A stretch of 34,926 nucleotides of DNA from a virus, in the IMG/VR virus record IMGVR_UViG_3300027834_000021, positions 1 to 34,926 of that record, one strand, 5' to 3'. The notes beneath the pieces were generated by a model. The model was not told where the DNA came from. It saw only the letters and a program-made list of their open reading frames with translations, and made no database searches. Numbering within the stretch: position 1 is the first letter of the stretch; each line of letters begins with the position of its first letter. This document shows positions 9,085 to 30,240 of the stretch, piece by piece. A program made the translations under genes and the position numbers.

Positions 9085-9477
9085 TAAATTGGTGTAGAGT
9101 TCGACCTATCTAGCCGATTCTAATCCCGACTCGCTTGTTCGGGCACTCCACATTGGGTGAGCTGTTTCTGTGTCCGACACGGTCACTGGACATTACTTTA
9201 GCTCTATCAGTCGCCAGCTTCAAACCGACGGACTCTGAATGGGTGTCCCAACTCTGCGCGTTCCGCGAACTTGAGGGACCATAGATTACGTTGATGGCTA
9301 CGCATATGTCTCCACCCTTAACAGGTAAATAACTTAGCGAATCTATGACAGGGTCGTTAACTCCCTGATTTTACGCCTAAGGTAGCAAACTGCACGTTGT
9401 ATCACAACGGATAGTTGGCGGCGCTAAGGACTGCATATCGCAATAGCAATATGACTGAATTTGTTGTATCTCTTTCC
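9085..9477 (-). ncRNA. Putative structured non-coding RNA in the left tRNA island
   Basis: About 390 nt with no credible gene, starting at a phage promoter (predicted start 9477) and ending at tRNA-Pro. Local inverted repeats include CATAT 9434-9438/ATATG 9449-9453, CGTTG 9395-9399/CAACG 9405-9409, CGCC 9374-9377/GGCG 9417-9420, CAGGG 9349-9353/CCCTG 9363-9367, CATAGATT 9280-9287/AATCTATG 9340-9347, TGTCC 9171-9175/GGACA 9188-9192 and CCCGA 9125-9129/TCGGG 9139-9143. The 9280-9347 helix encloses a CTGTTAA-type loop like that of tRNA-Asn. The helices are short, so this is less secure than the right island. Confidence 0.45.
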
Positions 9478-9490
9478 ATTAGGTTGTATA
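9471..9490 (-). promoter_or_regulatory. Phage promoter, leftward, ahead of the structured RNA and tRNA-Pro
   Basis: The minus strand reads TATACAACCTAATGGAAAGA. It is identical over 18 nt to the copies near 9882, 10008 and 11064. By T7-type geometry, initiation would be at the GG (9477). No coding gene follows within 580 nt, so the product is RNA. Confidence 0.75.
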
Positions 9491-9582
9491 GTAGGAAATT
9501 TGGGCTCTAATAACGGCTTTTACGCTGTGTCTTATACGTTCCCCTAAAGCCTAAGGGACACACGCTTGATACCTCATGAAAC

Positions 9583-10935: not shown

Positions 10936-11057
10936 TTTACACTCCATAGGGTAATTTGGTGGTTATACTAATAGATAGCTTATAGTAATCTATAGTCCAT
11001 CCTTTATTTAAACTTAATAAAGAGTCTTTTCTTTTGTCATTGCTGACAAACTCAATC

Positions 11058-11077
11058 TCTTTCCATTAGGTTGTATG
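11058..11077 (-). promoter_or_regulatory. Phage promoter, leftward, for TerS and the virion genes
   Basis: The minus strand reads CATACAACCTAATGGAAAGA, with predicted initiation at 11064. It is the last promoter match before TerS and so a likely main late promoter. Confidence 0.78.
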
Positions 11078-11100
11078 TTTTTTCATCACTATTATCCCGT

Positions 11101-11221
11101 TAGAAGCCCTTGGAGCAGTTTTATCACCTCTTTATTACCCTGTAGAAGCCCTAAAAGCGGATGAATCACTAGGTAAATTCACCATAAGTCCCTTTAGAAG
11201 CCCTTGGAGCTGTTGAATCAC
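11101..11221. repeat. Three spaced copies of a 27-bp direct repeat
   Basis: Units start at 11101, 11143 and 11195. Each begins TAGAAGCCCT(TGG/AAA)AGC and ends ATCAC. Spacings of 42 and 52 bp are about four and five helical turns. They resemble iterons or protein-binding sites. Confidence 0.75.
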
Positions 11222-11246
11222 AAAACAGACAGGTGTCGGATTTGAC
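11221..11246. repeat. Degenerate palindromic element, copy 4
   Basis: CAGACA and TGTCGG are present but separated by GG instead of one base, and the outer arm TTTGAC is shortened. It abuts the last unit of the 27-bp repeat array. It may be a decayed or weak site. Confidence 0.6.
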
Positions 11247-11320
11247 TGCTTTATAGCTATTTATAGTCTATTTATTGATGAATTTAAGGAAAGAATTAAC
11301 TATAGAGGTCTAATATGGCC

Positions 11321-11350
11321 CTGTATGAGCCTGTATGACCCTGTATGTGT
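11321..11350. repeat. Three tandem 10-bp repeats (CTGTATGANC)
   Basis: CTGTATGAGC, CTGTATGACC and CTGTATGTGT follow one another with exact 10-bp period, directly beside a leftward phage promoter. Helical-phase spacing suggests protein binding or DNA opening. Confidence 0.75.
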
Positions 11351-11366
11351 CCATTAGGTTGTGTGT
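11347..11366 (-). promoter_or_regulatory. Phage promoter-like site, leftward, variant
   Basis: The minus strand reads ACACACAACCTAATGGACAC. The core is intact but the initially transcribed bases differ from the GGAAAG of the tRNA and TerS copies. No gene lies between it and the next promoter at 11064, so it may prime replication or feed the late operon. Confidence 0.55.
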
Positions 11367-11540
11367 TAGAGCGTGTGAATTCTCGTGTGAGACACGTGTA
11401 TGTGGTCTATTAAGGGTCTATTAGGGCTCCATGGGGGCTGTTTTATGTGTTTACTAGTTCAATTTTCCAAAATTTATGTCAGGAACGCTGTTACCAGAGC
11501 GGCGGGGCGGGGTGTCCCTTTGGTTTCCCTATAGCCTCCT

Positions 11541-11569
11541 GTCAATATCCGACACTGTCTGTTTTTGAC
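11541..11569. repeat. 29-bp palindromic element, copy 5
   Basis: The half-sites are GTCAATATCCGACA and TGTCTGTTTTTGAC around a central C. No gene start is nearby, so this copy is not explained by a start-codon role. Confidence 0.9.
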
Positions 11570-11851
11570 AATAGTTGTCTTATTTGCAGGAATACGTCAT
11601 TGTTTCCTACGGGGACCTAAGGGATTTAACAGCTATATGAGTGTAATTGTGTATGCATTGTGTTGTATGGTTACGGTATACGGTCCTGTATGTGTTAAGT
11701 GAAGGGCACATATGCGAGTATGAACTACTGTATGTATCCCCATAGGGCCCTTGTTAGATACCACGTGTACTAGTCAGTATACCGTAGACTATTCAGTATG
11801 TTATCAAGTACGTGTATCCCGCGATAAACAGTACACAATATGGTATGGTTA

Positions 11852-11903
11852 AGTCAGGTATCTATAGGCTCAGGTTATGATAATAGTCAGGTATCTATAG
11901 GCT
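11852..11903. repeat. 19-bp perfect direct repeat
   Basis: AGTCAGGTATCTATAGGCT occurs at 11852-11870 and 11885-11903, 33 bp apart start to start. The spacer holds TTATGATAAT, AT-rich and easily melted. It is a possible origin or early regulatory element. Confidence 0.8.
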
Positions 11904-12229
11904 ATGTTTATAGCTGTTAGCTCATTATACCGCATACCATTTAAAGCCCCTGTAAGCCCTGTAGAAGCCTCGCAGTACCCCGAGACAATACGGTCAAGGT
12001 ATCAGGGAGAAATACCCGTCACGGGAATCGTTAGGATTATCAAGGGCTTACAGTTGTATATCCATACAGGTGGCATAGTCCTTGCTACGCGTGCGGTCCT
12101 TATTATACCCACGACATACCCCGACAAGGTCGCATTTCATAAAGGTTATAAGAACGTATTTCTTAGTCCAAAGTTGTCTTTCGCTTTTTCATTGCATGGC
12201 TTATAGTTACTACATCAAACAGAAACAAC

Positions 12230-12241
12230 GTTCTTTAACAA
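12230..12241 (+). promoter_or_regulatory. boxA-like antitermination sequence in the early leader
   Basis: GTTCTTTAACAA matches the core of gammaproteobacterial rrn boxA (TGCTCTTTAACAA), which binds NusB/S10. It lies about 280 nt upstream of the first supported early gene, in untranslated sequence. That is where protection from Rho would be needed if host polymerase starts upstream. Confidence 0.5.
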
Positions 12242-12512
12242 CTAGGCAAGCAAGGCGCGACACATACCCAAGCGGTTAACACTTCTAAGGTTATGCAGTC
12301 ACTAAGCGCATTCACCCACACTACGCAAAGCGAATATAAGTCTATAGAGTGTGGCGTACAGCTTACCACAAGAGGATAAACCAGAGCGCTAACGGTAGCG
12401 TTCGAGCTTATCTTTTAACGCTTGTTAATACTCCAAAGGGCTATACACTCTTGTATAGTCACTTTCTTTTCAAGCCAAACGATTTATCAATAACAGACAC
12501 TAGGCGGTTATC

Positions 12513-12593
12513 ATGGTCTTTACAATCTTATTACTAGGCATACCAACGCTATTTTGTATCGCTGGCATTGCTTCACTCTTTCTACTAGATTAG
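12513..12593 (+). CDS. Tiny membrane peptide, 26 aa
   Basis: ATG preceded by TAGGCGGTTATC. The same 13-nt ribosome-binding segment precedes the next gene (start 12603), supporting both starts. The peptide MVFTILLLGIPTLFCIAGIA… is one membrane helix. First gene of the early operon; function unknown. Confidence 0.5.
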   Translation: MVFTILLLGIPTLFCIAGIASLFLLD

Positions 12594-12602
12594 GCGGTTA
12601 TC

Positions 12603-18410: not shown

Positions 18411-18433
18411 ATATCTTTACTGAGGACTGAGTG

Positions 18434-20194
18434 ATGAGCTATAAACAAGTGGCTGAGTTATATGCAAATGACATAGATAGAAAACTGATTGCGACCTTGA
18501 CTGGTAAATCAGTAGATGATGTGAATTTGATATGTGATAATGAAGACCTTGAATCACGTATGAGTGGTGAAGGTTATAAACGCTTTATTGAACGTCAAGA
18601 GGATTTAAAGGCACGTGGTAAGGTATTTGAAACGAACGCTGTGCTGGACTTTGTGTACCAGACAGTGCGCCCAGTAGCTGACCTCATTGAAGAGTATAAA
18701 TTGGCTCATCCGAAAGGGATGGAAGCTAAGTGCTTAGTGAAATATGACTCTTTCAATATGGCGCTTTCTGCTATACGCTGCATCATCGGTTTATCACAGA
18801 AAAGTGGTAAGCAATTAAAATTCACAACTGCTTGTATTAATGTGATGGAAGCTATTGACCTAAACATTGAAAAGAATATGGCGGTTAAATGTGGTCGCGT
18901 GGTACTAGAAGCTGTCTTGCAACACACGGGTGATAAGTTCGAAAAGGTGTTAGAGACTGACGGTAAGAATGCTGTTTATGTGATTAATGCAACCGAAGCG
19001 TTTTTCGCGTGGGAAGAGGAATTAACCGAAGAATTAGCTGAAATGGCAGTGATGTTTCGCCCTATGGTAGTCCCTCCGCGTCCTTGGGATGGCTTACAAT
19101 CCGGTGGATATCACCATGAAACACTTAAACGTTCGTTCATCCGTAACCGCAAGAAGCTACCGTTATCCCAATACGGAACCAAGGCGATACCAAGAGTGTA
19201 TGAGGCAGTCAACAAGATTCAAGCGACGCCCTTTGCGGTTAATCAGTTCGTATTAGACACCGCATTAGCACTTAAAGAGCAAGAAGTGTATCATAAGAAG
19301 TTCCTTCAGGAGCTACCAGAAGCCCCTCACGACCGTTACGCGAGAGATATACGTAATGCTATTGAGAAAGACCAAGAGCTTCTAGGGCTCGATAAGGATG
19401 AGTTTAACGTAGCATTGGAGAACGATGCCTATGACCCCGAAACAGGTAAGAAGAAACCGAAGTCGAAGCTTATCACGTTTGGTAAGTGGATTCGTAGCCA
19501 GTTACTCAAGATTGTTGATGGTGCAGCCTACGACGCTAAGATGCGTCTGGAAGCCAACCGATATGACCTAGTCCAACTGCTCAAGTATAAGAAAGCTCTA
19601 ACCTCGGTGAAGAGTAAAAATCGAGTGATTAACACTGCCCTCAAGGTAGCCTGTGATTACCGAGAGTACACACAAATATTTTTCCCACACAATCTTGATT
19701 GGCGTGGACGGATTTACCCTATGACTGCTGGACTCACTACGCAGGGTGTAGGATTACAGAAGGCTTTACTTAAGTTCGACAAAGGCTTAGCCATTGGACG
19801 TGAGGAAGCTTTGCAATACTTATTAGCGCACGTTGCTGGATGTTGGGGCTTAGACAAAGCTCCGTGGGACGAGCGTATAGAATGGACGGCTAACAATCGT
19901 GAATTTATACAGAAGGTTGCAGATAACCCAGTTGATACGTTTGATACGTGGAAAGAAGCTGATTCCCCGTGGTTATTTATTGCGGCTTGTAACGCCATGT
20001 CTGATTATTACAAGAACGGGCTTAGCTCTTTATGTGATATACCGATTCCTGTTGATGGCACATGTAACGGTGCTCAACACTATGCAGCTATGACGCGTGA
20101 TGCTCATGGTGCTTATCAGGTTAACGTGATGCCTAATGGAACCAAGGGACTCCGTGACCGTTTAACGAAACTACGAGGTAAATTAAATGGATAA
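18434..20194 (+). CDS. T7-family RNA polymerase, N-terminal subunit (motif A half), 586 aa
   Basis: ATG at 18434, one codon after a GTG, with GAGGAC 8 nt upstream. NLDWRGRIYP matches T7 DWRGR, and DGTCNGAQHYAA matches DGSCSGIQHFSA with the catalytic Asp at residue 541 (T7 D537). The chain stays collinear to VNVMPN (T7 VNLLPS, about 563), then ends with an unrelated basic tail GTKGLRDRLTKLRGKLNG. Motifs B and C are missing and lie in the gene at 20769. Both products are needed for an active site. The last codons overlap the next gene's ATG (coupled). Confidence 0.93.
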   Translation: MSYKQVAELYANDIDRKLIATLTGKSVDDVNLICDNEDLESRMSGEGYKRFIERQEDLKARGKVFETNAVLDFVYQTVRPVADLIEEYKLAHPKGMEAKCLVKYDSFNMALSAIRCIIGLSQKSGKQLKFTTACINVMEAIDLNIEKNMAVKCGRVVLEAVLQHTGDKFEKVLETDGKNAVYVINATEAFFAWEEELTEELAEMAVMFRPMVVPPRPWDGLQSGGYHHETLKRSFIRNRKKLPLSQYGTKAIPRVYEAVNKIQATPFAVNQFVLDTALALKEQEVYHKKFLQELPEAPHDRYARDIRNAIEKDQELLGLDKDEFNVALENDAYDPETGKKKPKSKLITFGKWIRSQLLKIVDGAAYDAKMRLEANRYDLVQLLKYKKALTSVKSKNRVINTALKVACDYREYTQIFFPHNLDWRGRIYPMTAGLTTQGVGLQKALLKFDKGLAIGREEALQYLLAHVAGCWGLDKAPWDERIEWTANNREFIQKVADNPVDTFDTWKEADSPWLFIAACNAMSDYYKNGLSSLCDIPIPVDGTCNGAQHYAAMTRDAHGAYQVNVMPNGTKGLRDRLTKLRGKLNG

Positions 20195-20548: not shown

Positions 20549-20769
20549 CCATTGAGATACACCTTCTGATAGCCTTAGGACTTGTGATGATTTACTCAGC
20601 ACATCCCATATGGACACTCTACCGACACGATAAGACATATCCAATAACATCCTTTCGAGAACTATGTGTATTCACTACAATGATGTTGCACATCCCCACA
20701 ATAATAGTTGCCTCCTTGTGCCGCCACGGTATCAAAGGATTCTTTAAGTTCTTCACGGAGAAACAATAA
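20545..20769 (+). CDS. Membrane protein, 74 aa, inside the split polymerase locus
   Basis: Starts MTIEIHLLIALGLVMIYSAH. Two hydrophobic segments (about 3-18 and 45-60) with a basic tail. Its TAA shares a base with the ATG of the polymerase C-gene (TAATG), so the C-half is probably translated by coupling to it. Confidence 0.65.
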   Translation: MTIEIHLLIALGLVMIYSAHPIWTLYRHDKTYPITSFRELCVFTTMMLHIPTIIVASLCRHGIKGFFKFFTEKQ

Positions 20770-21788
20770 TGACCTTCACTGACGACGCTCTAACCCTCCT
20801 TATCAAAGCTGGCTTGACCGATGATGAAATCGTTCAACACGTACACTTAAACACTAAGCCAGCCGACCTATACGGAGCGGTTGCTGAAGTCGTCACTCAG
20901 GTCTTAATGGGTGATAAAGAAACCCTAAAGCTTATCGAAAAAAGTAACAAGTCATTCCTTGACCGCATCAAAGATATGTTTGGCAAGAGTGATGTAGTCG
21001 AGGTTATCGAGTGGTGGAAAGAATTGGGCATTACACGCTCAGACACTAAAGCCATTGTGATGACCTTTCTTTACGGCTCAAGTGAATATGGTAATCGTGA
21101 TTCAATTCAGGAACGTATTGATGAGCGTGCAGAGGAACAGCTTGAAAAGGGTCTAGACTCCTACTGGGATAGAAGTGGTGCAGACCTATGGAAAGAACAG
21201 CGTACAGTCGCAGTGACAACCATGGTTCGTTTAATCCGTGGTGCAATGTCAATCGTATGTCCCTCAACTGTACAAACTATGGATTGGCTGCAACAAGTCG
21301 GACTCATCCTTGGTGAAAGAGATTTACCGACGCGCTGGAAGACGAAGTTAAACTTCCCAGTATGTCAAGATAATCCGAATCGTGTTGTTAAGAAAGTCCA
21401 GTGTTTAGAACATGGTAAGCGTATTTGTTCAATTCAGATTCGTGTACCAGCAACCACAGGGAAACGATTAGATGCAAAGAAGATATCAGCGGGCATTGCT
21501 CCAAATTTCATTCACAGCTACGATGCGTGTCACCTACAGCTTGTGGCACTCGGTGTTAACACTATCTATTTTCATATGATTCACGATAGCATGGGTGGTC
21601 AGGTCGCTTGTATGCCTGAGTTTTCCTATGTACTCCGTGACACCTTTTGCGACATGTACGCAGACGAAGACGTTCTCTTTGATTTCTGGATGGAAAATGA
21701 TGGCGATACTTTAGCCCTTCCAGCCCCGAAAGAACTAGGCGACTTCAACGTGAACCTTGTTCGTGAATCAAAGTACTTTTTCCACTAG
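20769..21788 (+). CDS. T7-family RNA polymerase, C-terminal subunit (motifs B and C), 339 aa
   Basis: After a 28-residue head unlike T7, TKPADLYGAVAEVVTQVL aligns with the T7 segment following the split (about 566 onward). Motif B is RSDTKAIVMTFLYGSSEYG with R90, K94 and Y102 (T7 R627, K631, Y639). GIAPNFIHSYDACH matches GIAPNFVHSQDGSH, and motif C IHDSMG holds Asp273 (T7 D812). The C-terminus ends ESKYFFH, the T7 foot ESDFAFA. All key residues are intact, so this is a working half. Together with the gene at 18434 it covers the whole enzyme. Confidence 0.93.
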   Translation: MTFTDDALTLLIKAGLTDDEIVQHVHLNTKPADLYGAVAEVVTQVLMGDKETLKLIEKSNKSFLDRIKDMFGKSDVVEVIEWWKELGITRSDTKAIVMTFLYGSSEYGNRDSIQERIDERAEEQLEKGLDSYWDRSGADLWKEQRTVAVTTMVRLIRGAMSIVCPSTVQTMDWLQQVGLILGERDLPTRWKTKLNFPVCQDNPNRVVKKVQCLEHGKRICSIQIRVPATTGKRLDAKKISAGIAPNFIHSYDACHLQLVALGVNTIYFHMIHDSMGGQVACMPEFSYVLRDTFCDMYADEDVLFDFWMENDGDTLALPAPKELGDFNVNLVRESKYFFH

Positions 21789-25157: not shown

Positions 25158-25177
25158 TTACACCCTTATGAAGAGAA
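25158..25177 (+). promoter_or_regulatory. Phage promoter, rightward, opening the right RNA island
   Basis: TTACACCCTTATGAAGAGAA, with predicted start at the G at 25170. The first gene downstream begins 595 nt later, so the immediate product is untranslated RNA. Confidence 0.7.
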
Positions 25178-25764: not shown

Positions 25765-26061
25765 ATGACTGACCGTGAAAAGATTCAAATCCTTAGAAGC
25801 TGTACCTTACAAGTCGGGCATACCGATGGACAGCCATTTGAAAAAGGATGTGTCACCGTTTGTTCCGGTCGAAGTTACGACTTGTTTGCCATCGGGGAGA
25901 TTCAGGAAATTATGAATCACTTCAATAGCATGGCAGCCTTCGGCAGCATTCCGTCACCCACTGACAGATTCGTATATCGTATGTTTCAAGACAACGGTAT
26001 CATCACAGCTTTCGCATATCTAGGCGACTGCATGAATGCTGAAGATAGAGAAGAAATTTAG
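25765..26061 (+). CDS. Hypothetical protein, 98 aa, within the RNA island
   Basis: Start at MTDREKIQILRSCTLQ with TTAGGAGTCATT upstream; an earlier in-frame ATG (25705) falls in structured RNA. Soluble, mixed helix and strand (FAIGEIQEIMNHFNSMAAFG), no motif recognised. Its TAG stop ends on the first base of the following tRNA. Confidence 0.72.
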   Translation: MTDREKIQILRSCTLQVGHTDGQPFEKGCVTVCSGRSYDLFAIGEIQEIMNHFNSMAAFGSIPSPTDRFVYRMFQDNGIITAFAYLGDCMNAEDREEI

Positions 26062-26136
26062 GATAGGTAGCTCAGTTGGGAGAGCATCCCCCTCATACGG
26101 GGACGGTCGCTGGTTCGAGTCCAGCTCTATCCACCA
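26061..26136 (+). tRNA. tRNA with CAU anticodon (elongator Met, or Ile2)
   Basis: Complete cloverleaf with encoded CCA: acceptor GGATAGG/TCTATCC, D-arm GCTC-AGTTGGGA-GAGC, anticodon stem TCCCC/GGGGA with loop CTCATAC, T-arm GCTGG-TTCGAGT-CCAGC. It lacks the initiator marks seen in the CAU tRNA at 8226-8302. Whether C34 is modified to lysidine (Ile) cannot be read from sequence. Its 5' G is the last base of the upstream stop codon. Confidence 0.95.
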
Positions 26137-26142
26137 AACAAA

Positions 26143-26273
26143 CGGGAAGTAACTGGTAATTATCATCCAGCTTGGCTAGGACGGTACTTTGGTTCACCAC
26201 GCATAGGTGGTTCTGAGGTGTGCGTTCGTGGAGTCATAATAGATGGAGGTGTGAAATCCTCCCTTCCCGACCA
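26143..26273 (+). ncRNA. 131-nt tRNA-like RNA ending in ACCA
   Basis: CGGGAAG (26143-26149) pairs perfectly with CTTCCCG (26263-26269), followed by A and CCA. Directly inside is GGAGG-TGTGAAAT-CCTCC (26245-26262), in the position of a T-arm but with an 8-nt loop. CTGG/CCAG after the 5' strand resembles a D-stem. The intervening about 75 nt, including an ACCAC/GTGGT hairpin, is too long for a normal anticodon and variable region, and no canonical anticodon loop was found. It could be a tRNA with an insertion, or a dedicated tRNA-like RNA. Confidence 0.55.
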
Positions 26274-26287
26274 AACAGGAGCAATTT

Positions 26288-26524
26288 ATGGAATGGCTTA
26301 TAGCTTTTCTAGTAAGTTTCGTAGGCGTAGGTCTGCGAGGGCTCCAAACGCACAACATAGTAGATGGTAATTTCAAAGCTGCTGGTATAACCAGTGTCCT
26401 CATGGGAACCACAAATGTCGCCATGATAGGTCTAGTAGCTGCTGACCCGTACTATGTAGCAATACCTGTAATCGTCGGGAGTACCTTGGGTGTACTCACA
26501 TCAATGTGGTGGAAAAGACGATAA
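26288..26524 (+). CDS. Phage membrane protein, 78 aa, within the RNA island
   Basis: Starts MEWLIAFLVSFVGVGLRGLQ, with AGGAG 6 nt upstream. About two to three membrane segments (2-18, 30-50, 55-72) and a basic end WWKRR. Proteins with this VGVGLRGxQ…N…Y/F…AxxTS layout are common in tailed phages, as I recall, usually without assigned function. Holin-like roles are possible. Confidence 0.72.
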   Translation: MEWLIAFLVSFVGVGLRGLQTHNIVDGNFKAAGITSVLMGTTNVAMIGLVAADPYYVAIPVIVGSTLGVLTSMWWKRR

Positions 26525-26528
26525 GAAC

Positions 26529-27265
26529 AAGGCAGCGTTCCCTTATATCTCAGTAAGCAGCCCGTCAAACTCTTTGATTACTGTGGGAACCGCTGCAACC
26601 AAATTAGTGAACGGTGATGGATGCACCAATTCGAGAAAGTTCCTGTCCTCGTTCACTAGCTCAAACAATGGTTTCTTGAAGTCCACCTCCCTACTCTCAC
26701 GACTTCTTTATTCAGGGTAATTCCGAAAGAAACCCTCAAATTCTTATAGTGACGCCCAGCGGTGTCCTTCGAAATCCACCTCCTATAAGCACTAACCCTT
26801 CGGGGATTTGCCCAACGAGCTGAGTTAGTAGATAAGATGGCGAAAGCCCCAAACTCTAAGTGAGTCTTTTAATACTAGGCACTTAGAGCCCTTTGGAATG
26901 CCCGTGGAATCACACAGACGCCCTCACTGTGCCATGGGTATCCCAAAGGGCAGCCCTCCCCCTTGTTCCTAGCAACGCGACCGAATCTGGTTTGGCGCGT
27001 CGGGATGTATCAGCAATCAAACCAGTCAGATGTATCTCATGTCTAGTGGGCTTCTGAATGTCACCGTAAAAGTCTCCAAGGGTTCCCTGACGTATTCAGT
27101 GGTCTCAAAGATGACGCACGCGGTGGGATTCAGAAATCCTCTGGGTTTCCCTCCAAGTAAGACAGCCGATTCCTAGGGCTTTGTACAGGGAGCCGAAAGG
27201 CGAATGAAAGAGTGGATTTTAAATAATTCAGTGAACTCAGAATCTACGGGTTAACGCCCAATTTT
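26529..27265 (+). ncRNA. Large ornate non-coding RNA, about 740 nt
   Basis: No credible gene, but dense perfect helices. GCAGCG+TTCCC 26532-26542/26585-26596 (one bulge) encloses CAGTAA/TTACTG 26551-26556/26578-26583 and TCAAA/TTTGA. TAGTGAACG/CGTTCACTA 26605-26613/26650-26658. ACTAAC/GTTAGT 26791-26796/26824-26829 beside a UUCG hairpin. CTCTAAGTG/CACTTAGAG 26854-26862/26880-26888. GCCCTTTGG/CCAAAGGGC 26888-26896/26943-26951. CTGGTTTG/CAAACCAG 26987-26994/27018-27025. CTGAATGTCA/TGAC..ATTCAG 27054-27063/27088-27099. GGATT/AATCC near 27126-27139. GGGT/GCCC plus a T-rich tract near 27248-27270 may end it. It lies downstream of a tRNA and a tRNA-like element. Confidence 0.82.
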
Positions 27266-27292
27266 TATTTAGATAATGAGAAAAATCCATAA

Positions 27293-27796
27293 ATGTCAAT
27301 TATTAAAGGTGAAGTTTTATTCGCATCAACTGCTAGTGTAGATGATAAGTTCGGTCCACCGGGTAACTATTACGTTACATTGCTGGTAGACGAGGAAACG
27401 TTTGCAGACGCAGAAGCAGATGGTCTTAAATGTAAGCGCGGTGACTATAAAGGTACGCCACAACTTACAGTTAACCTGAAGCTGAAAGGCGGTGGTACAC
27501 GTCGTGACAATACGACTTATATCAATAAGCCAATTACTGTTGTAATTAAAACACCAGAAAACAGCAAGGCTCCTTATCAGGAGAAAGCCCACGATGAAAA
27601 TGGCGACGTATGTATGCGTCAAAAGGAACTCGTTCGTGGCTCATTAGTCCGTGTATCGTACAAAGCACGTGAGTGGACTATGATGGGTAAATCAGGCGTA
27701 GCGTTCGACCTTAAAGCCGTACAGGTTTTAGTTGAAGGTAGCGGTTCACAAGACCCAACCGACGAATTCGATGACGATGACGACGGTGACTTTTAA
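27293..27796 (+). CDS. Single-stranded DNA-binding protein, 167 aa
   Basis: Beta-rich OB-fold-like body (residues 1-140) starting MSIIKGEVLFASTASVDDKF, and a long acidic tail DEFDDDDDGDF ending in Phe. An acidic C-terminus with terminal Phe is the mark of T7 gp2.5-type SSBs and lets the protein contact polymerase and helicase. Length and placement among replication genes fit. It would coat single-stranded DNA during replication. Confidence 0.85.
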   Translation: MSIIKGEVLFASTASVDDKFGPPGNYYVTLLVDEETFADAEADGLKCKRGDYKGTPQLTVNLKLKGGGTRRDNTTYINKPITVVIKTPENSKAPYQEKAHDENGDVCMRQKELVRGSLVRVSYKAREWTMMGKSGVAFDLKAVQVLVEGSGSQDPTDEFDDDDDGDF

Positions 27797-27806
27797 GCAA
27801 TAATAC

Positions 27807-27843
27807 GGAATCCAATCACTGCGGTGGTTGGCTTCCTTTTTTT
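27807..27843 (+). terminator. Strong rho-independent terminator after SSB
   Basis: GGAA-CCAA-CAC and GTG-TTGG-TTCC form an 11-pair interrupted stem with a short loop, followed by seven T. It closes the SSB unit directly before palindrome copy 12. Confidence 0.92.
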
Positions 27844-27886: not shown

Positions 27887-28174
27887 ATGACTCAAGTGTT
27901 CGGTAGCCATGTTTTAGATAGAATAATTGTGGTTCACAATAAAAAATTCTACGCATATAATCATGCTTACAGTAAAGCTTTAAATCTGTTCACAGAAGAA
28001 CAGTGGGTTAAACAATCAGGTAACGCTATGTGTGAACAGACACAAAGCCGTGCCATTAATGTACTGACAGCATATGACGTGGAGAAATTACATGAATTTC
28101 AAACAGAACCTAATCATCAATATCTTCTTTATCGCAGCAGCTATTATAGCGCTCTCCTTCCCTTTACAGGTTAG
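27887..28174 (+). CDS. Hypothetical protein, 95 aa
   Basis: Start at MTQVFGSHVLDRIIVVHNKK, with GGGAG upstream after palindrome copy 12. Soluble and basic, mixed fold. The last 28 codons overlap the signal-peptide region of the next gene in another frame, an unusually long overlap (83 nt), so its C-terminus may have been extended by read-through of a lost stop. Confidence 0.6.
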   Translation: MTQVFGSHVLDRIIVVHNKKFYAYNHAYSKALNLFTEEQWVKQSGNAMCEQTQSRAINVLTAYDVEKLHEFQTEPNHQYLLYRSSYYSALLPFTG

Positions 28175-28562
28175 AGCTGACTCATTCATTCTAGGTGGTG
28201 GTTCGTACCATCTACAGACGCGAGATTATACTCATGACGGTGAAAACGTTAAAATTAATGAGGTCAATCCAGCCTTCGGCTATCGCAATTCTCGTTATGA
28301 GGTCTCAGTTATCTATCTTATGGAGAACTCGTACAAGAACGAATCTCTCGCTATTGCTTGGAATCCGCGTTGGGAAGTCACCCCGACTATGGACTTAGGT
28401 TTACGCCTCGGTGCAGCCACTGGTTACGCTGATACTCCCGTGGATTCCGAAGTAGTCCCTGTGGCAGGTTTTGATTTCACCTATGATATGGGTGCATTCT
28501 ATTTAGTTCTGGGCTTCATTGCACCAGAAGTTATCACATTACATTTGGAAATTCCCTTATGA
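28092..28562 (+). CDS. Exported protein, probable small outer-membrane beta-barrel, 156 aa
   Basis: Start at MNFKQNLIINIFFIAAAIIA with GTGGAG upstream. A Sec signal peptide ends near VRADS (about residue 27). The mature chain alternates polar and hydrophobic residues in strands of about 8-10 residues with aromatic ends (SYHLQTRDYTH, YEVSVIYLMEN, LGLRLGAATGYA, FDFTYDMGAFYLVLGF), as in 8-stranded barrels such as PagP/OmpW-type proteins. No catalytic residues were assigned. A receptor-masking or superinfection-exclusion role is possible but unproven. Confidence 0.6.
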   Translation: MNFKQNLIINIFFIAAAIIALSFPLQVRADSFILGGGSYHLQTRDYTHDGENVKINEVNPAFGYRNSRYEVSVIYLMENSYKNESLAIAWNPRWEVTPTMDLGLRLGAATGYADTPVDSEVVPVAGFDFTYDMGAFYLVLGFIAPEVITLHLEIPL

Positions 28563-30135: not shown

Positions 30136-30154
30136 TTTACACTCTTATGAACAG
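30136..30154 (+). promoter_or_regulatory. Phage promoter, rightward, ahead of the ligase/replication unit
   Basis: TTTACACTCTTATGAACAG, with predicted start G 30149. Unlike other copies it is followed within 6 nt by a strong hairpin. Confidence 0.65.
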
Positions 30155-30195
30155 AAGGTCGCATTACCCTGAGGGGTCTATGTGACCTTTTATTT
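30155..30195 (+). terminator. Hairpin with T-rich tail immediately after the promoter
   Basis: AAGGTC (30155-30160) pairs with GACCTT (30184-30189), with inner CA/TG and CCCT/GGGG pairs, then TTATTT. It may terminate host-polymerase transcripts from upstream. For phage-polymerase transcripts starting at 30149 it would be a 5' stem-loop, as on several T7 mRNAs. Confidence 0.7.
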
Positions 30196-30211
30196 AGAGT
30201 TCACTGAATGA

Positions 30212-30240
30212 ATCAAAATCCGACACTGTCTGATATTGAC
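30212..30240. repeat. 29-bp palindromic element, copy 13
   Basis: The half-sites are ATCAAAATCCGACA and TGTCTGATATTGAC around a central C. It ends 10 nt before the ATG at 30251, with AGGAGA between. Confidence 0.92.

Follow-up and report, generated by a model that had tools for sequence, protein, structure and literature searches.

Among the large noncoding RNAs of phages, GOLLD, ROOL and that of phage ICP1 can reach high abundance, and we know of no function for any of them. In the tRNA cluster of phage T4, the stable noncoding RNAs species 1 and species 2 are matured together with the tRNAs. Vibrio phage ICP1 encodes a noncoding RNA of approximately 800 nt, which is its most abundant transcript, between gp139 and gp140, where the lysis cluster begins (PMC7567579). 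GOLLD is often found near tRNAs, and one known example lies downstream of a Met-tRNA (PMC12286853). The window analyzed here, the whole 34,926-nt stretch of IMG/VR record IMGVR_UViG_3300027834_000021, is a 34.9-kb fragment from a podovirus whose relatives include Vibrio phage CHOED as well as the Aeromonas phages 1233 and MQM1 (67–70% for SSB and 40–44% for the first part of the RNA polymerase). A preliminary description had read about 740 nt between a membrane-protein gene and the SSB gene of this phage as a large noncoding RNA, possibly of a new class, and had likened it to GOLLD and ROOL. The dense noncoding structure of this stretch, hereafter element B (Table 1), was confirmed, and its reading as a structured noncoding RNA near a tRNA was supported computationally, whereas membership in GOLLD or ROOL was not supported by the Rfam models.

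The nearest precedent for element B is the ICP1 RNA, which is of similar size, noncoding and located beside lysis genes, and which shows its fold signal on the transcribed strand as element B does on the + strand. The signal of the ICP1 RNA (z −2.5) was weaker than that of element B in the same measurement, there was no sequence similarity between the two, and the ICP1 RNA matched neither the structure models of element B nor, above the gathering score, any Rfam family. In addition, ICP1 is an unrelated phage without tRNAs, and expression has been shown for its RNA, whereas element B is known from sequence alone. Like GOLLD, element B is large, ornate and phage-borne, with a tRNA nearby, and it is similar to ROOL in its size, in coming from a phage and in lying near tRNAs (PMC12286853). 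However, the covariance models of both families failed to match. GOLLD (RF02032) gave no match in the record at E values up to 10, its conserved 3′ region was not found, and cmscan was negative; ROOL (RF03087) gave no match at E values up to 10, a search that carries little weight taken singly because no control genome matched either, and cmscan was again negative. No other Rfam family matched element B by cmscan. The model RF01998 (group II intron domain) gave nothing above its cut-off, and a group I or group II intron was rejected because there was no Rfam match and element B interrupts no gene, both flanking genes being complete. As in large structured noncoding RNAs in general, the lack of a protein frame was combined with structure beyond chance on one strand. 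The species 1 and 2 RNAs of T4 may be likened to element B, by description only, as stable noncoding RNAs of phage origin, and they are much smaller. Multimer formation by element B would be pure analogy.

Each of the six frames of element B contained 7–16 stops, and codon scores were below zero in all six, with SSB scoring +0.45 in its own frame; the stretch thus holds no credible gene, as had been described. A decayed gene was rejected as its origin because codon scores were negative in every frame. The flanking genes, given earlier as a membrane-protein gene and SSB, proved by family matches to encode a holin-like protein and SSB. When perfect Watson–Crick helices of at least 8 bp with a span of at most 120 nt were counted, element B had six, whereas 1000 dinucleotide shuffles averaged 0.96 and did not exceed 5, and the count of element B was the highest among 185 windows of the 35-kb record. 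The claim that helices are crowded here beyond random sequence was therefore borne out, and the four helices offered as examples were all found. Three of them were perfect (26854–26862/26880–26888, CTCTAAGTG/CACTTAGAG; 26888–26896/26943–26951, GCCCTTTGG/CCAAAGGGC; and 26987–26994/27018–27025, CTGGTTTG/CAAACCAG), and the fourth, 26532–26542/26585–26596, consisted of 6+5 bp with a single bulged C. A UUCG-capped hairpin was likewise present, as CCC-UUCG-GGG at 26796–26805.

The fold energy of element B gave z −4.4 on the + strand, with none of 60 shuffles as good, and z −1.5 on the − strand. Since DNA palindromes would score about equally on both strands, this bias points to an RNA read rightward, in the same direction as the flanking genes, and argues for selection on RNA. 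Most of the signal came from 26888–26951 and 27047–27140, and the segments 26952–27044 and 27141–27200 were unremarkable on energy alone. Some coding windows of the record reached z −3.4 and −3.9, so that little weight can be put on fold energy by itself, and the case for element B is carried more by its helix density and strand bias. In its layout, element B consisted of roughly ten closed stem units arranged head to tail, the first of which, B1, ended in ACCA. A second GAAA-capped stem, in addition to that of B5–B6, was located at 27192–27201. The helix 26987–26994/27018–27025 is an 8-bp complement that links one loop of B9 to the other. The open-loop hairpins plus the 8-bp contact were calculated at −12.1 and −9.5 kcal/mol, with no kissing penalty counted, and were thus of about the same stability as the best knot-free fold at −19.9 kcal/mol, so a loop–loop kissing contact in B9 is possible by this model.

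Table 1. Features of the element B locus and the structured stretch of Vibrio phage CHOED.
Feature	Position	Strand	Remarks
Probable phage-polymerase promoter	25159..25175	+	Promoter-like motif match, 17/17 to TACAMCCTWATGRARAG; probable start at 25170
Element A, second noncoding structured stretch	25170..~25740 (3′ border approximate)	+	21-bp helix 25585–25605/25650–25670; two 8-bp helices; z −4.6
tRNA-Met	26061..26136	+	389 nt upstream of element B
tRNA-like RNA, ~130 nt	26143..26273	+	7-bp acceptor-like stem; D-like and T-like arms; ACCA end
Holin-like membrane protein gene	26288..26524	+	phrog_7045, E 3e-7
Element B, dense noncoding structure flanked by the holin and SSB genes	26525..27270	+	
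B1, 6+5-bp rod with one bulge	26532..26596	+	GCAGCG/CGCTGC and TTCCC/GGGAA; pair probabilities 0.90 and 0.99; z −2.9
B2, 11-bp closing helix	26604..26659	+	TTAGTGAACGG/TCGTTCACTAG; pair probability 0.93
B3, perfect 8-bp helix (26670–26677/26727–26734)	26670..26734	+	GGTTTCTT/AAGAAACC; inner GAAGTC/GACTTC; outer-helix pair probability only 0.55
B4, 7-bp closing helix	26743..26789	+	CTTATAG/CTATAAG; inner GACGCC/GGTGTC
B5–B6, weak small stems	26791..26848	+	UUCG loop (26796–26805); GAAA loop (26839–26848)
B7, perfect 9-bp helix	26854..26888	+	CTCTAAGTG/CACTTAGAG
B8, most stable unit	26888..26951	+	Rod of 9, 10 and 5 bp; base 26888 common to B7; z −6.2
B9, two hairpins	26975..27038	+	26975–27000 and 27002–27038
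B10, long rod	27047..27140	+	TTCTGAAT/ATTCAGAA plus TCACCGT/GCGGTGG; z −4.9
Segment complementary to 30197–30221 (leader of ORF 30236 and RNA-ligase operon)	27214..27238	+	25 nt, 88%; lead only
Small hairpin, then U-rich TTTTATTTAGA (27263–27273)	27248..27273	+	Likely 3′ border of element B
SSB gene (gp2.5-like)	27293..27796	+	phrog_112, PF10991
Terminator-like hairpin with T run, 3′ of SSB	27812..27841	+	
Unannotated 1.4-kb noncoding structured stretch beside endolysin, Vibrio phage CHOED (KJ192399)	L002:20606-22084		

The motif TACAMCCTWATGRARAG is SP6-promoter-like and is repeated on both strands before tRNAs, noncoding stretches and genes; its + strand form occurs in three copies each in two partial relatives, L012 and L013. 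A motif scan of the record found no copy at element B itself, and the nearest strong upstream copy was that at 25159, 1.35 kb away. From this copy, the order was element A, a small gene, tRNA-Met, the tRNA-like RNA, the holin gene, element B, SSB and the terminator-like hairpin. In the tRNA-like RNA, an arm of approximately 65 nt replaces the anticodon arm, and the RNA had no match to any tRNA model. No + strand terminator-like site was found in the unit from 25159 to SSB, and a good one was present after SSB at 27812. Because a promoter-like copy starts the unit, which has no internal terminator-like site and one after SSB, element B is probably transcribed from the promoter at 25159. This phage contains several structured pieces of noncoding sequence, element B among them.

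The search for homologues of element B brought in none from phage, IMG/VR, plasmid or GTDB collections. A blastn search of 50,697 phage records gave nothing, and that of plasmids gave only matches to tRNA-Met. Protein-anchored scans of IMG/VR with SSB alone or holin alone gave nothing, those with SSB, RNA-polymerase and primase alignments gave only CHOED itself and one distant primase match, and a GTDB scan for relatives was empty. L012 and L013, which were found via another RNA, do not extend to the element B locus. Structure models built from 26886–27040 and 27045–27195 gave nothing significant in CHOED, 1233, MQM1, L012, L013 or ICP1, and their remaining matches within the record were to the minus strand of those inverted repeats.

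The CHOED genome, however, carries its own structured stretch in the lysis-gene neighborhood upstream of SSB (Table 1). It had no ORF of more than 66 amino acids and, like element B in this related phage, appeared as a row of closed structured units with linkers rich in A and U. The two differ in that the CHOED stretch is twice as long, has promoter-like sites of its own (two tandem copies of CHOED's own motif at its start), contains internal duplications (two duplicated hairpins) and lacks a strand bias; its halves folded with z −2.6 and −3.6, and the minus strand was at least as good. No sequence was common to the CHOED stretch and element B, and 10-mers common to the CHOED stretch and element A were at chance level.

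From these observations, element B is best read as a structured noncoding RNA, modular in build, that belongs to the lysis/tRNA region; it is like GOLLD and ROOL in kind and a member of neither. We propose, with a probability somewhat short of one half (about 0.48), that it functions in a CHOED-like podovirus as a structured noncoding RNA, processed from a long transcript and standing alone around lysis. The phage's own RNA polymerase would initiate at the SP6-like promoter at 25159, and the transcript would span element A, the small gene, tRNA-Met, the tRNA-like RNA, holin, element B and SSB and end at the terminator-like hairpin. The host RNases that mature tRNAs might also cleave around element B, and the RNA so released would be stable and consist of about ten closed stem units in a row, with a possible loop–loop contact at one place; it would accumulate late, around lysis, as a separate RNA comparable to that of ICP1. 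In this reading we infer the transcription, processing, stability and timing, and any trans-acting role; the reading as a whole draws on several lines of evidence: the helix density above 1000 shuffles, the + strand bias and the missing coding signal; the promoter-like motif at 25159, which recurs in two partial relatives, and the terminator-like site after SSB, with none inside the unit; the tRNA-Met and tRNA-like RNA just upstream; and the CHOED stretch beside endolysin together with the ICP1 precedent beside the lysis cluster (PMC7567579). Counted against a stand-alone RNA are the failure to find a homologue and the lack of a promoter of its own, the CHOED stretch, which shares no sequence with element B and folds equally well on the minus strand, the genome of MQM1, which has no room before SSB for such an element, and the coding windows that reach z −3.9. 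A further step, which we regard as doubtful, would be that element B is the first recognized member of a new class of large phage RNAs in the lysis/tRNA region of CHOED-like phages, of polycistronic origin, with loop–loop contacts and perhaps multimeric, and that the CHOED stretch is a distant or convergent counterpart.

If element B is a true large RNA, it would be a further example whose sequence is unlike GOLLD, ROOL and the ICP1 RNA, and it would suggest that phage genomes contain other unrelated large RNAs that have escaped annotation. CHOED, which is cultured on Vibrio anguillarum and has the comparable stretch, would give a system for testing the roles of large RNAs around lysis.

A stand-alone RNA has two main rivals, a long structured leader of SSB and a set of small stable RNAs. 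Element B lies inside an apparently polycistronic unit, has neither its own promoter nor a terminator-like site before SSB, and has its 3′ end 23 nt from the start codon of SSB, and these features would suit a structured part of an mRNA. Such a part could be a long 5′ leader belonging to SSB, or a spacer by which the processing, stability and translation of holin are tuned against those of SSB within one transcript. We nevertheless consider this unlikely, because the usual mRNA leaders are far smaller than 740 nt, element B has about ten independent stem units, and SSB in CHOED, MQM1 and 1233 has no such leader directly upstream. Slightly less probable again is an array of small stable RNAs that would be cut at A/U-rich linkers like the tRNAs of a tRNA cluster. 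The head-to-tail arrangement of closed units and the ACCA at the end of B1 are consistent with such an array, and CAAATT-type linkers were enriched both in element B (4 versus 0.9 expected) and in the CHOED stretch (10 versus 1.9). A linker followed a closing stem in 14 of 19 cases in the noncoding elements, compared with 31% elsewhere, for a pattern that was picked after inspection. On the other hand, only three linkers in element B fit, several unit borders have none, the possible kissing contact links two units, and neither ARAGORN nor Rfam at E values up to 10 found a tRNA cluster or tRNA remnants in element B.

It is improbable that element B has no RNA function and that its inverted repeats arose from chance, from mobile elements or through a role at the DNA level, such as in replication near SSB. 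The failure to find a homologue, the several units that were unremarkable by energy and the existence of the palindromes at the DNA level are in line with this explanation, whereas the six long helices, compared with at most 5 in 1000 shuffles, the + strand bias, which is not expected from DNA palindromes, and the retention of a noncoding stretch in a compact phage genome argue against it. Finally, that the 3′ tail of element B (27214–27238) would be an antisense regulator of the ORF 30236/RNA-ligase leader is highly improbable, since the complementarity, although equalled by only 2 of 500 shuffles and directed at a target behind the promoter-like site at 30138 and directly 3′ of a strong hairpin with a U-rich tail, and although exact copies of TTTTATTTAGA occur in the record only at these two places, is a single match chosen out of several scans and leaves the rest of element B unexplained. 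An antisense link of comparable kind has been reported for PLE satellite RNAs (PMC7567579), and such a role of the tail would be compatible with element B as a stand-alone RNA. The leader itself (30149–30235), which precedes ORF 30236 and the RNA-ligase gene, folded with z −3.5 and is a possible attenuator.

Other RNAs and features were observed in the record. On the minus strand, a noncoding block of approximately 200 nt (9230–9430), behind a promoter-like site at 9488, was nearly identical to L012 3012–3210 and L013 6493–6690, and a two-sided change from CAGGG/CCCTG to CTGAG/CTCAG preserved a stem. This block had no blastn match in phages, and it is better conserved than element B. Directly after a tRNA, also on the minus strand, lies an element of approximately 86 nt (9498–9582) starting with GTTTCATGARGTATCAAG, which was kept from CHOED to the source phage, with counterparts at L002 10202–10288, L012 2727–2812 and L013 6208–6293 (model scores of 94–107 bits). 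It was not in Rfam at the gathering score and may be a small stable RNA belonging to the tRNA cluster.

A palindrome centered on GACASTGTC occurred in 13 copies (427, 3702, 10359, 11543, 13855, 16781, 18295, 20341, 22158, 23827, 27847, 30214 and 34282), mostly intergenic and in both arms of the record. The core is found throughout CHOED, where it flanks the noncoding stretch, and is absent from the read stretches of 1233 and MQM1; it is a candidate operator-like or processing site. The single-subunit RNA polymerase was encoded in two frames, 18431–20194 and 20769–21788, separated by approximately 575 bases that contain a small ORF and an operator-like palindrome. The split is also present in 1233 and MQM1 and is annotated as an intron in CHOED; no Rfam intron matched the gap in the record. 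Between the leftward and rightward gene blocks, approximately 1.6 kb without convincing genes (10950–12600) contained short repeats of the GCCCTTGGAGC type and several perfect helices, giving the second-highest helix count in the record, and is possibly an early control region or origin. At 28074–28562 lies a gene of a kind that is unusual in phages, with a match to the PagP family of lipid A acylation (phrog_3600, E 6e-22).
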